Shown here: positions 15,554 to 64,000 of the stretch, one piece after another
Layout of the letters: every line of letters starts with the position of its first letter
Position numbering within the stretch: the stretch's first letter is position 1
From: an uncultured Alphaproteobacteria bacterium
GTDB taxonomy: Bacteria; Pseudomonadota; Alphaproteobacteria; Caulobacterales; Aquidulcibacteraceae
NCBI GenBank assembly: GCA_902826245.1
Contig: CADEEA010000011.1
Location: forward strand, 1-64,000
Direction of reading: 5' to 3'
Length of the DNA: 64,000 bases
Program-made: the position numbers and the translations under genes
Notes under the pieces: generated by a model
Told to the model about the DNA's origin: nothing
Databases searched by the model: none
Seen by the model: the letters and a program-made list of their open reading frames with translations, nothing else

Positions 15554-16543
15554 ATGGCTGACGTTTTCGTTTCGTATAAAAGAGAAGATAGAGCGATAGC
15601 AGAGCGAGCTGCCGCTTTTGTTCAGCGCGCTGGTCTTTCCACATTTTTCGACGTGAACATTCCAGTCGGAGACACATGGGACCAAGTGATCGAGGCTGAA
15701 CTTCGGGCCGCGAAAGCGGTCTTGGTTCTATGGACGCCTTCCTCCGTCAACAGCCGATGGGTCAGAATTGAGGCGCGGGATGCGCTAACGCGCGGAATTC
15801 TATGTCCAGTGATCGTAGAAGATTGCGCTATACCGCTTGAATTTCAGGACGTGCAAGCAGCACAGGTTAGCTCATTTGACCTGCCAAGCGGAGATCTCGA
15901 CAGACTCTTGGAGCGACTGTTTGAATGCCTGGAGCGTGAAGGCACCGTACCAGAGATCAATCTGGTGCGCGCAGGGGAAGGTCGGAGCGAGTATCAACAC
16001 TACTGTGAATTGGTTCGCGCAAGCGTTGAAGCTTGCGATTTCATTTCGTTCCTCACGGCCCAGCCGGTCGATCCCGACGGCTCTCAGCAGGTTTACAAAG
16101 CTTTCTCCCGGCTCAAGATCGATATCGGTCAGCTGGAGAGCTTAGAACGCCGGGTGTATGGGAAGATGGAACTATGCATTGATCTGCAAAATGCGAAATT
16201 CTTTGTATGGGAGGCAGCAAAACGTGCCGATCGTTGGCTTTTGCTGGACCAGTTCAGACGCTCTTGGATGAAACGAGATATTGATGAAGCCGCATATTAC
16301 TTCAGTCGCCGCCACGGTATCATTCGACCGGACCTAGTCGAACGAACGCGCAATGACGAAGACGCTCAAGAATCTCGCAATCCAGCATGGTTCAGCGGGT
16401 CTCGCCTAAGCGAACAGGGTGTTGCTGCGATCTACCGCATGTATGATGAAGGTCGATCTGTTTATGCGGCAGCGAAAGCTATGGGCATTTCCTACAGCGC
16501 AGCCTCGCACCGCCGTGAACTCTGGAAAGAGCGACAGGGCTAG
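15554..16543 (+). CDS. TIR-domain protein with C-terminal helix-turn-helix
   Basis: A 329-residue protein. Residues 1-130 are a TIR domain: MADVFVSYKREDRAIAE, the FFDVNIPVGDTW loop, VLVLWTPSSVNSRWVRIEARDAL with Glu73 in the position of the NADase catalytic glutamate, and LCPVIVED. The middle (about 140-280) is helical and unrecognised. The last 45 residues (RLSEQGVAAIYRMYDEGRSVYAAAKAMGISYSAASHRREL) look like a resolvase/Hin-type HTH. No membrane segment. The coding sequence has visibly lower GC and unlike codon use (many AAT, GAA, TTT), suggesting recent transfer. Bacterial TIR proteins often degrade NAD in phage defence; here this is inference. It stands alone. Confidence 0.85.
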   Translation: MADVFVSYKREDRAIAERAAAFVQRAGLSTFFDVNIPVGDTWDQVIEAELRAAKAVLVLWTPSSVNSRWVRIEARDALTRGILCPVIVEDCAIPLEFQDVQAAQVSSFDLPSGDLDRLLERLFECLEREGTVPEINLVRAGEGRSEYQHYCELVRASVEACDFISFLTAQPVDPDGSQQVYKAFSRLKIDIGQLESLERRVYGKMELCIDLQNAKFFVWEAAKRADRWLLLDQFRRSWMKRDIDEAAYYFSRRHGIIRPDLVERTRNDEDAQESRNPAWFSGSRLSEQGVAAIYRMYDEGRSVYAAAKAMGISYSAASHRRELWKERQG

Positions 16544-61287: not shown

Positions 61288-61785
61288 TTAACCCCGCTCC
61301 GGCCGCCACGCCGCCAGCAAACGCGGGCCGCAGGCGCGCAGGATTTCGCCCCTCACTTCGAACGCAGCCCAGGCGGCGGTGGGAAAATCGCTTGCCACCA
61401 CACGTGCGAGCGTGGAGCCGTCATGGGCCTCGCGCACCAGCAGCGCGGCCAGATCGCCCATGCCGGGATTATGGCCGATGACGACGACGCATTCCCCCTC
61501 GCTCGCGACAAACGCGTCCCAGATGCCCTCGGGCGAAGCGAGATAGAGCGCGTTGTCGAAATCAATCTCGGCGCCGCATCGCTTGAGCGCATGTTCGGCG
61601 GTTTCGCGCGTGCGCTGCGCGGTGGAGACTAAAGCCAACGTCGGCTTGAGGCCCGCCGCCGCGATCGCTTCGCCAGCGGCCTCCGCGTCGCGCCTGCCGC
61701 GCCCGGTCAGCGCCCGCGCCTCGTCGCTCGGCGCTTCGTGGGCGCGGACGGCTTTGGCGTGGCGGAGCAGGATCAGCGTGCGCAT
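61288..61785 (-). CDS. SixA-like histidine phosphatase
   Basis: A 165-residue protein of the histidine phosphatase superfamily with LLRHAKAVR (RH motif), the TAQRTRETAEH segment and VIGHNPGMGDLA for the second catalytic histidine. SixA removes phosphate from phosphohistidine proteins such as PtsO or His-kinase HPt domains. Its sequence is intact, and it is monocistronic between the S24 gene and the TIR-cytochrome gene. Confidence 0.88.
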   Translation of the reverse strand: MRTLILLRHAKAVRAHEAPSDEARALTGRGRRDAEAAGEAIAAAGLKPTLALVSTAQRTRETAEHALKRCGAEIDFDNALYLASPEGIWDAFVASEGECVVVIGHNPGMGDLAALLVREAHDGSTLARVVASDFPTAAWAAFEVRGEILRACGPRLLAAWRPERG

Positions 61786-61908: not shown

Positions 61909-62853
61909 TCATTGCGGATCAATTCCCCCATTGACCGACACCTGGCGCATGTAGGCGATCAAAGCGGCGCGATCGTCTGGCTCTGCTACGCCTGCAAACG
62001 ACATACTCGTTCCTTCAACAAGGTCCTCGGGGTGCTTCAGATAGCGATCAAGCGCCTCGTACGTCCAATCAACGTTGGCTGCAGCGTAGGCCCTGAGCGC
62101 TTGAGAATAGTTTGTGTACTCTGGCGCCGCGGCGATCCGGCCATCGAACGCTTGCTGCAGGCTAGGGCCAATGTGTTCAACGCCGTCTGCGATAAAAGAG
62201 TGGCAGGCGCGGCATACCTTGGCGACCTCCGCGCCGCGCCCGATGAGCTGCTGACCGCGCACGGGATCACGCAACGCCGCGCGCCAACTTTGGTAGGTCA
62301 TAGAAGAATTGATCGGCGTCGACGTCGTCGCCCGCGCAGCGTCTTGCTGGCGCAGAGTCGACACGCCCAACACCGCGACGGCTGCAGCGGCGGCTGCTAC
62401 GCCCCACAACCAGGCGCCCGACCGCACTCCGACGCGGCGCGGCGTGGGTGAAGGCGGTGCAGGCGCGTTCAGCTTACCCGCGACGCCAGCGACAATCTCG
62501 GCCACCCCCGCATGCGCCACGCCGGGACGGTAATTCCGTAAATCCGCAGTTTGCACGATGCCGTAGGGATATTTCAGTGCTACATCGTCGAGCCGCGCGG
62601 CGACCAGAATTTTGCGGTTGAAGCCGTCGACCGCCTCGGCCTGCACCCATTGGCTGGCATGGCTGGCCATGGTCCACAGAACCAGCACGCAGCGCGCGCT
62701 GGCTAATTCGCGTTGGATGGCTTCGTTGAAATGCTCACCGGCCACCAGCGAAGTGTCCCACCAGCAGGAAAAGCCGGCTGCGCTCAGGGCCCGATCCAAT
62801 GCTTCCGCAACAGGTCGGTTCTCGCGTTTGTAGGAGATAAAAACGTCGGCCAT
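61909..62853 (-). CDS. TIR domain - transmembrane - cytochrome c fusion protein
   Basis: A 314-residue protein with three parts. Residues 1-125 are a TIR domain (MADVFISYKRENRPVAE, WWDTSLVAGEHF, VLVLWTMASHASQWVQAEAV) with Glu73 in the position of the catalytic NADase glutamate. Residues about 148-167 form one transmembrane helix (AWLWGVAAAAAAVAVLGV). Residues 200-314 are a class I cytochrome c: CRACH haem site (Cys214, Cys217, His218), YLKHPEDLVEGTSMSF with Met284 as probable axial ligand, and an ALIAYMRQ end. The helix after basic residues puts the TIR inside and the haem outside. ATG 62853 was chosen by similarity to the other TIR protein; longer starts exist. Divergent from lysK. The architecture is unusual and its function unknown. 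Confidence 0.88.
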   Translation of the reverse strand: MADVFISYKRENRPVAEALDRALSAAGFSCWWDTSLVAGEHFNEAIQRELASARCVLVLWTMASHASQWVQAEAVDGFNRKILVAARLDDVALKYPYGIVQTADLRNYRPGVAHAGVAEIVAGVAGKLNAPAPPSPTPRRVGVRSGAWLWGVAAAAAAVAVLGVSTLRQQDAARATTSTPINSSMTYQSWRAALRDPVRGQQLIGRGAEVAKVCRACHSFIADGVEHIGPSLQQAFDGRIAAAPEYTNYSQALRAYAAANVDWTYEALDRYLKHPEDLVEGTSMSFAGVAEPDDRAALIAYMRQVSVNGGIDPQ

Positions 62854-62998
62854 GGCCCGCCCCGCGCATCCGCGCTCAGCCATTAGCACCCGCCGGCGCA
62901 CGCGTCAGGCCCCACGTCGCCCCGGCATCCAGACCATTAAGGGAGGATTTGGCAGGCCGAGCGCCGGCGGCTAATCAGACTCATGTCTGGATTCGCCA

Positions 62999-64000
62999 AT
63001 GTCTGAACTCACCGCCCTCGCCGCCGCCGCCAAGGCTTGGCCGTTCGAACAGGCGCGCCTGCTTTTGGAGCGGGTGAAACATCGCCCCAAGAACCGGCCG
63101 GTGATTTTCGAGACCGGGTACGGGCCATCGGGTTTGCCCCATATCGGCACCTTCGGCGAAGTAGTGCGCACGAGCATGGTGCGTCACGCCTTCCGCGTGC
63201 TGACCGAGGACGCGTATCCCACCAAGATCATCTGCGTCTCCGACGACATGGACGGCATGCGCAAACTGCCCGACAACGTGCCCAATCACGAGATGCTGCG
63301 CGAATATTTGCAACGGCCGCTGACCGACGTGCCCGATCCGTTCGGCACGCACGCGAGCTTCGCCCACCACAACAATGCGCGGCTGTGCGCGTTCCTGGAC
63401 GGCTTCGGCTTCGAGTACGAGTTCAAGTCGGCGACTGCTTTGTACAAGAGCGGCGCTTTCGATGCGACACTCCTGAAGGCGCTCGCCGCCTATGACGAGA
63501 TCATGGCGATCATGCTGCCGACGCTCGGCGAAGAACGTCGGCAAAGCTATTCACCGTTCCTGCCTATATCGCCGAAGTCAGGCCGCGTGCTCTACGTGCC
63601 GATGAAGCGTATCGACGCGGCCGCCGGCACGATTACCTTCGACGACGAGGACGGCGAGGAAATCACCCAAACCGTCACCGGCGGGCGCGCCAAGATGCAA
63701 TGGAAGCCCGATTTCGGCATGCGCTGGGCGGCGCTCGGCGTCGATTTCGAAATGTTCGGCAAGGACCACCAGCCGAACCAAGGCGTTTATGCTCGCATCT
63801 GCAAGGCGCTCGGGGCAGAGCCGCCGATCAATTACGTGTACGAGATGTTTCTCGACGAGCACGGCGAGAAGATCTCAAAAACCAAGGGCAACGGCATCAG
63901 CGTCGAACAATGGCTCTCCTACGCCGCGCCTGAGAGCCTTTCGCTGTACAATTTCCAAAAGCCTCGCACGGCCAAGAAGCTCTATTTCGATGTGATCCCG
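62999..64000 (+). CDS. lysK: lysyl-tRNA synthetase, class I (3' end outside the window)
   Basis: The first 334 codons of an open gene. [26 protein letters not shown] is followed by the HIGH-like [46 protein letters not shown], and the KMSKS equivalent [10 protein letters not shown]. Class I LysRS, unlike the class II LysS of many bacteria, is common in alphaproteobacteria and archaea. It charges tRNA-Lys. Only the catalytic core is visible here; the anticodon-binding helical bundle lies beyond the window. Confidence 0.95.

Follow-up and report, generated by a model that had tools for sequence, protein, structure and literature searches.

A TIR Domain Joined through a Membrane Helix to a Class I Cytochrome c Domain in Two Species of an Alphaproteobacterial Genus

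Introduction

Most of the work on bacterial TIR domains concerns cytosolic triggers, namely nucleotides, nucleic acids and phage proteins. SARM1, AbTir and SPARTA are known NADases, and in the characterised TIRs it is the assembly of the domain that governs NAD cleavage. Class I cytochromes c have electron transfer as their native role, and it is in the periplasm that c-type haem is covalently attached. Periplasmic c-haem sensors with cytosolic signalling have been described in the proteins DcrA, GSU0582 and GSU0935 (PMC8396549), with the haem-containing Cache domains representing further sensors of periplasmic c-haem and cytosolic output (PMC12889525). The Geobacter sensors are reported to work through a loss of the methionine ligand that is linked to the redox state (PMC8396549). 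In studies of bacterial conflict systems, modules with the FGE-sulfatase/C-type-lectin fold and WD40 repeats are regarded as parts that sense or bind (PMC8195603; PMC7159879). No description of a TIR–cytochrome c architecture was found in the open-licence literature, which is weak evidence of absence.

The gene described here lies in a window of 64,000 nucleotides (the whole stretch of DNA analysed; contig CADEEA010000011.1, positions 1 to 64,000) from an uncultured member of the Aquidulcibacteraceae. It encodes a protein (P0001) that would join these two fields. The novelty of its putative sensor is high and its distribution narrow, the function being predicted from sequence.

The Fusion Gene and Its Domains

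61909..62853, reverse strand: TIR–membrane helix–cytochrome c fusion gene (P0001), 314 aa; open frame, Pfam matches and a syntenic ortholog

The frame translates without interruption from ATG to stop, giving 314 aa. An alternative, longer frame would start at a GTG at 62901 (330 aa), its extra N-terminal stretch lying outside the TIR domain, and the ATG at 62853 agrees with the MADVFISY start of related TIRs. The GC of the gene is similar to that of its surroundings, and no sigma-70-like promoter or terminator was found around it. Both domains, TIR_2 and Cytochrom_C, score above the curated Pfam cut-offs.

62533..62844, reverse strand: TIR_2 domain (PF13676), residues 4-107; Pfam E 1e-19, 71.6 bits against a cut-off of 28
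62635..62649, reverse strand: WVQAE, W69 to E73, the position of the TIR-NADase catalytic glutamate; alignments

E73 is invariant, and W69 nearly so, across 36 aligned TIRs, with the WVQAE motif falling beside the WPQKE of Paracoccus PdTIR. AlphaFold2 models this domain with a pLDDT mostly of 91-98, falling to 83 at residues 31-40, and Foldseek on that model gives the SARM1, AbTir and SPARTA TIRs as the nearest folds. With its glutamate at the catalytic position of the TIR NADases, the domain is predicted to cleave NAD+.

62362..62418, reverse strand: single hydrophobic helix, about residues 146-164; Kyte-Doolittle scan and sequence

The helix is Ala-rich and moderately hydrophobic (Kyte-Doolittle 1.88 over 19 residues), and three arginines stand ahead of it, in keeping with the positive-inside rule. 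An N-in/C-out topology fits the protein, because the arginines precede the helix and c-type haem attachment needs the periplasm; the TIR domain would thus lie in the cytosol and the cytochrome c in the periplasm. CcmE, a cytochrome c maturation gene, was found in both of the genomes that carry the fusion. Cleavage near the helix after synthesis, leaving two free halves, the TIR and a periplasmic cytochrome c, might use a weak site in the Ala-rich segment that follows the helix (QQDAARATT). Internal signal anchors are seldom cleaved, however, no clear site is seen near the helix end, and the segment is not conserved, reading QQEVARSMPS in the ortholog, all of which makes such processing very improbable.

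61939..62238, reverse strand: class I cytochrome c domain, residues 206-305; Pfam Cytochrom_C E 7.5e-5, 24.4 bits against a cut-off of 21.3
62200..62214, reverse strand: CRACH haem attachment site, residues 214-218; sequence, CRHCH in the ortholog
62002..62004, reverse strand: Met284 within GTSMSFAG, the predicted sixth ligand of the haem; alignment to GTKMAFAG, present in both c552 and the CycM-like paralogs

In phmmer, Paracoccus cytochrome c552 is the PDB match (E 1.5e-15), aligning through CxxCH and the GT-x-M-x-FAG methionine loop. The class I signature, CxxCH with a distal Met, is thereby present according to both Pfam and the c552 alignment, the fold model of this part being of low confidence, and the domain probably carries covalent haem. 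In the AlphaFold2 model of the whole protein the TIR is good, with the helix lacking a confident model and the cytochrome part likewise poor, probably a consequence of an alignment that was in essence two rows deep in these parts.

The anatomy of the protein thus agrees with what an earlier note had read from the letters of this DNA. A TIR domain, a signal-anchor helix and a complete class I cytochrome c within one gene were borne out by Pfam, the Kyte-Doolittle scan and the c552 alignment. The position-73 glutamate, CxxCH and methionine ligand were found again in the alignments of the 36 TIRs and of c552, and the predicted arrangement of TIR inside and haem outside holds as likely, given the arginines before the helix.

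A Second Species, the Locus and Selection

An ortholog (P0002) is present in another species of the genus (G192, L065; public record CADEDG010000045.1), with 83% identity over the full length and one two-residue indel, located in the helix. The CxxCH and the Met ligand are kept in both species, the former as CRACH in P0001 and CRHCH in P0002. Synteny places the fusion between the same two genes in both cases:

61288..61785, reverse strand: SixA-like gene of the phosphohistidine phosphatase family, bordering the insertion on one side; sequence and synteny
62999..64000, forward strand, running off the window: class I lysyl-tRNA synthetase-like gene, the other edge of the insertion; synteny

The first of these neighbours is taken to be SixA-like from its sequence, and the second is presumably lysK. 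Both are housekeeping genes, and no partner gene for the fusion was found at the locus.

Between P0001 and P0002 the overall dN/dS is 0.16, that of the neighbouring sixA being 0.163. By part, the ratio is lowest in the TIR (0.09), higher in the cytochrome (0.185 at dS 0.67) and highest in the linker and helix (0.25), all of these being single pairwise Nei-Gojobori estimates between two species. Both ends of the joined protein are under purifying selection.

An assembly or frameshift artefact might be suspected behind such a fusion, since both genomes are draft assemblies. The identical joint at the same locus, however, with in-frame divergence, occurs in the assemblies of two species. Artefact and chance are excluded for P0001 because the fusion is found at this locus in a second species as well and because of the dN/dS of 0.16. 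An artefact therefore has a negligible probability, and the joint is confirmed as genuine. Two of the findings that the earlier note had named as fatal to its reading, a frameshift or assembly error joining two genes and the absence of the fusion from all close relatives, were not encountered: the same in-frame joint occurs in the second species, and one close relative (G192) has the fusion. The domains, their order, the motif residues, the conserved joint and the purifying selection are hence matters of observation.

Origin of the Cytochrome Domain

In the tree, the fused cytochrome domain groups with a membrane-anchored CycM-like cytochrome c, on a long branch of 2.1 changes per site. The forks that join it to the CycM-like clade have 82-89% support, one of them with a weak SH-aLRT. 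It can be proposed with moderate support that the fused domain is a diverged copy of the CycM-like membrane-anchored cytochrome c, and that a TIR-helix protein likely acquired this copy, the fusion being already in place between sixA and lysK when the two species diverged. No separate cytochrome had been listed among the hits for the two fusion genomes (G000 and G192), as if the fusion had replaced it, but a direct search found the separate CycM-like gene retained in both.

These results bear on the possibility that the cytochrome is the working part of the protein, an electron carrier, with the TIR only clustering or positioning it or bringing cytosolic partners to the respiratory chain. Such a role agrees with the complete class I signature of the domain and with its grouping with a membrane-anchored CycM-like carrier. 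Yet the separate CycM-like gene means that the carrier role is already covered in both species, the fused copy sits on its long branch and constraint is stronger on the TIR (dN/dS 0.09), so that this explanation is rather unlikely.

Distribution of the Fusion

Within the genus, the fusion was found in two of 30 species, standing beside sixA in two of the 28 genomes with a sixA match. In 25 of these 28, sixA and lysK are adjacent, about 90-445 bases apart, and neither a TIR nor a cytochrome match lies in the interval. Some relatives have a small frame of about 85 aa, hydrophobic by eye, between the two genes (L171:1996-2407, L174:1990-2414). In the remaining sixA genome (G255) the gene has a different setting.

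No further full-length fusion was found in the 30 genus and 60 family genomes, nor in 249 order, 385 class and 398 phylum genomes, in which the best 5-9 candidates per genome were scored. The same applies to a contig collection of 84,980 species, searched with two TIR-end peptides as queries, and to viral contigs, plasmids and phages. An independent TIR–cytochrome c fusion with a dissimilar TIR could escape both the best-5-9 scoring and the TIR-end peptide scan. The fusion is young and narrow in distribution, because these searches found no case beyond the two species.

Several candidates were discarded. An apparent second fusion (G038:C49), aligned over residues 1-310, is a 570-aa frame with neither CxxCH nor a cytochrome match; in L090 the CxxCH of the TIR frame lies upstream of the TIR, again with no cytochrome match; and G652 has a TIR-helix protein lacking CxxCH. 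The sixA of G255 (L169:1-700) is the closest to that of the window (83% identical). An ancestral fusion was considered at this locus and dismissed, a different gene being found upstream of sixA. The neighbour there is not lysK but, by eye, presumably the end of an aspartyl-tRNA synthetase gene, reflecting a local rearrangement or a binning error. A mobile origin was also rejected, as there was no phage match and no plasmid fusion, two weak viral contigs matched in the TIR only and the GC resembles that of the surroundings.

Such a restricted occurrence, together with the widely differing C-terminal parts of related TIRs, is what would be expected from a recent domain accretion, in which a TIR-helix gene gained a cytochrome c end as a periplasmic plug or anchor and makes little use of the coupling. 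The cytochrome part is, however, under purifying selection (dN/dS 0.185 at dS 0.67), and the haem and ligand residues are kept in both species, which leaves the accretion quite unlikely.

TIR Domains of the Lineage

The genome to which the window belongs has 22 TIR_2 matches, 17 of which are over the cut-off. Among sampled proteins of this genome and its relatives, Pfam finds TIRs joined to FGE-sulfatase, WD40, MORN, DUF805 and reverse transcriptase, with weaker matches to helix-turn-helix and Sel1, and a hydrophobic helix follows the TIR in many of the lineage's TIR proteins. In the TIR tree, the TIR of the fusion belongs to a clade of eight (99/94 support), of which two carry the cytochrome c, one (in G226) an FGE-sulfatase and the rest unassigned C-termini. 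FGE-sulfatase occurs in at least three separate places of this tree, which has 70 rows and few columns and does not resolve the deep forks.

The fusion is therefore better read as one of many TIRs of the lineage with swapped C-terminal modules, that is, as a new putative sensor module on a known TIR chassis. Of the earlier reading of the fusion, its reality stood, the same domain order being found in a second species. The picture is altered by the rarity of the architecture (2/30) and by its place in this large set of TIRs, which speaks against a stand-alone system, and the link from redox state to NAD cleavage is putative.

Other TIR genes of the lineage were observed along the way. The window itself holds a second one (15554-16540, forward strand; L005), with TIR_2 at its N-terminus and weak helix-turn-helix matches in its C-terminal part. 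Elsewhere in the genome are found a reverse transcriptase-TIR (G000:C5, about 80201-81877, reverse strand; L047:2202-3878), which matches the PADLOC RT-TIR type XII retron models with 525.6 bits and falls just below the cut-off of NCBIfam Retron_TIR_antiphage (571 against 600); three consecutive TIR genes, TIR-MORN, TIR-helix and TIR-DUF805 (G000:C1:171-3949, L042); and a 1067-aa frame that has a TIR at its N-terminus and 13 or more WD40 repeats (G000:C45, L054:371-3571). Neighbouring TIR-helix gene pairs of relatives (L030, L035, L064 and L071) resemble the TIR-helix and TIR-DUF805 genes of L042. Among the closest TIR relatives (66%), L066:1274-2698 has a different C-terminal part, and frames near it resemble, by eye, AbiE-type and mobile-element genes.

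A defence role comes into question here. In this explanation, the cytochrome c would detect the collapse of respiration or the membrane damage that comes with phage infection, upon which the TIR would deplete NAD and kill or stall the cell, in a form of abortive infection. The TIR fold is nearest to immune NADases, the domain has weak matches to SAVED-TIR, ThsB and type III Thoeris models, and the genome has many TIR genes, including the one of RT-TIR retron type. Against this, the fusion is flanked by housekeeping genes and has no defence partner at the locus, the defence models that come with a cut-off all score below it, and the searches of phages and plasmids returned no copy of the fusion. 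An envelope-damage sensor for defence is accordingly regarded as unlikely.

A Tentative Model for the Fusion Protein

The preferred reading, held tentatively and at somewhat short of an even chance, is that of a receptor-like TIR, in which the redox or ligand state of the haem in a periplasmic cytochrome c controls TIR assembly or NAD cleavage. The cytochrome c is proposed as the sensor because the slot after the helix is variable and several of its other modules are regarded as parts that sense or bind. In this receptor model, the N-terminal TIR would reside in the cytosol, a single signal-anchor helix would cross the inner membrane and the haem-bearing cytochrome c would occupy, in the periplasm, the variable C-terminal slot that other modules fill in related TIRs. 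The trigger may be the haem redox state, the loss of the methionine ligand, the binding of a small ligand or the docking to a respiratory partner. Any of these would alter the dimerisation or clustering of the protein, and on the cytosolic side this would in turn switch the assembly of the TIR and its cleavage of NAD, or else signalling between TIRs. By parallel with the Geobacter sensors, a haem change could alter clustering and hence TIR assembly. The NADase activity, the direction of signalling, the biological trigger and any role in phage defence are all putative. The narrower version, in which it is specifically the redox state of respiration that the cytochrome reads, the cytosolic TIR of the one protein cleaving NAD under its control, is doubtful.

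The receptor reading is favoured by the dN/dS constraint at both ends and by the G226 protein, in which the TIR-helix layout is retained with an FGE-sulfatase replacing the cytochrome c. It is weakened by the fact that the known c-haem sensors have a PAS-like or Cache fold rather than a complete class I cytochrome c, by the occurrence of the fusion in two species only, so that its function cannot be read from broad conservation, and by a moderately hydrophobic helix, poorly modelled helix and cytochrome parts and a locus without a partner gene.

Were the receptor reading true, the control of a TIR by the envelope or respiratory state through a periplasmic haem would become a question, and one testable with a single protein, in which the respiratory chain would be linked directly to an enzyme of the immune or cell-death type. 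The dozens of TIRs with swapped C-terminal modules in this lineage amount to a natural series of receptor variants that have their TIR base in common. In the cytochrome c case the sensor would be visible by spectroscopy, making the coupling of sensor and output measurable.

Comparison with Known Systems

The bacterial TIR NADases AbTir, PdTIR and SPARTA TIR-APAZ, and the eukaryotic SARM1, share the TIR fold and the glutamate position with P0001; to our knowledge, none of them has a membrane helix and a cytochrome c. The earlier note knew of no described TIR–cytochrome c system, and this finds no contradiction in the literature searched, which comprised open-licence papers only.

Similarity to Thoeris ThsB/ThcB4 and to the SAVED-TIR of CBASS is weak and confined to the TIR, the architecture of P0001 being different. 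ThcB4 reached 40.8 bits against a cut-off of 220, with no partner effector gene at the locus. Pfam found no STING or SAVED domain in P0001, the PADLOC SAVED-TIR match spanning the TIR part only.

On the haem side, DcrA, GSU0582, GSU0935 and the haem-Cache proteins have in common with P0001 a periplasmic c-type haem, a membrane helix and a cytosolic output (PMC8396549, PMC12889525). They differ in their PAS-like or Cache fold, neither domain having a Pfam match in P0001, and in their outputs, which are chemotaxis or other signalling modules instead of a TIR. The CycM-like class I cytochrome c (P0003; own copy L154) has a domain about 41% identical and the same short lead-in before CxxCH, but it lacks a TIR and is anchored by its own N-terminus.

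The TIR–helix–FGE-sulfatase (lectin-fold) proteins, such as that of G226 (L011), are like P0001 in the N-terminal TIR (65% identical) and in the helix that follows it, and differ in having an FGE-sulfatase C-terminus and a place in the genome other than sixA-lysK.
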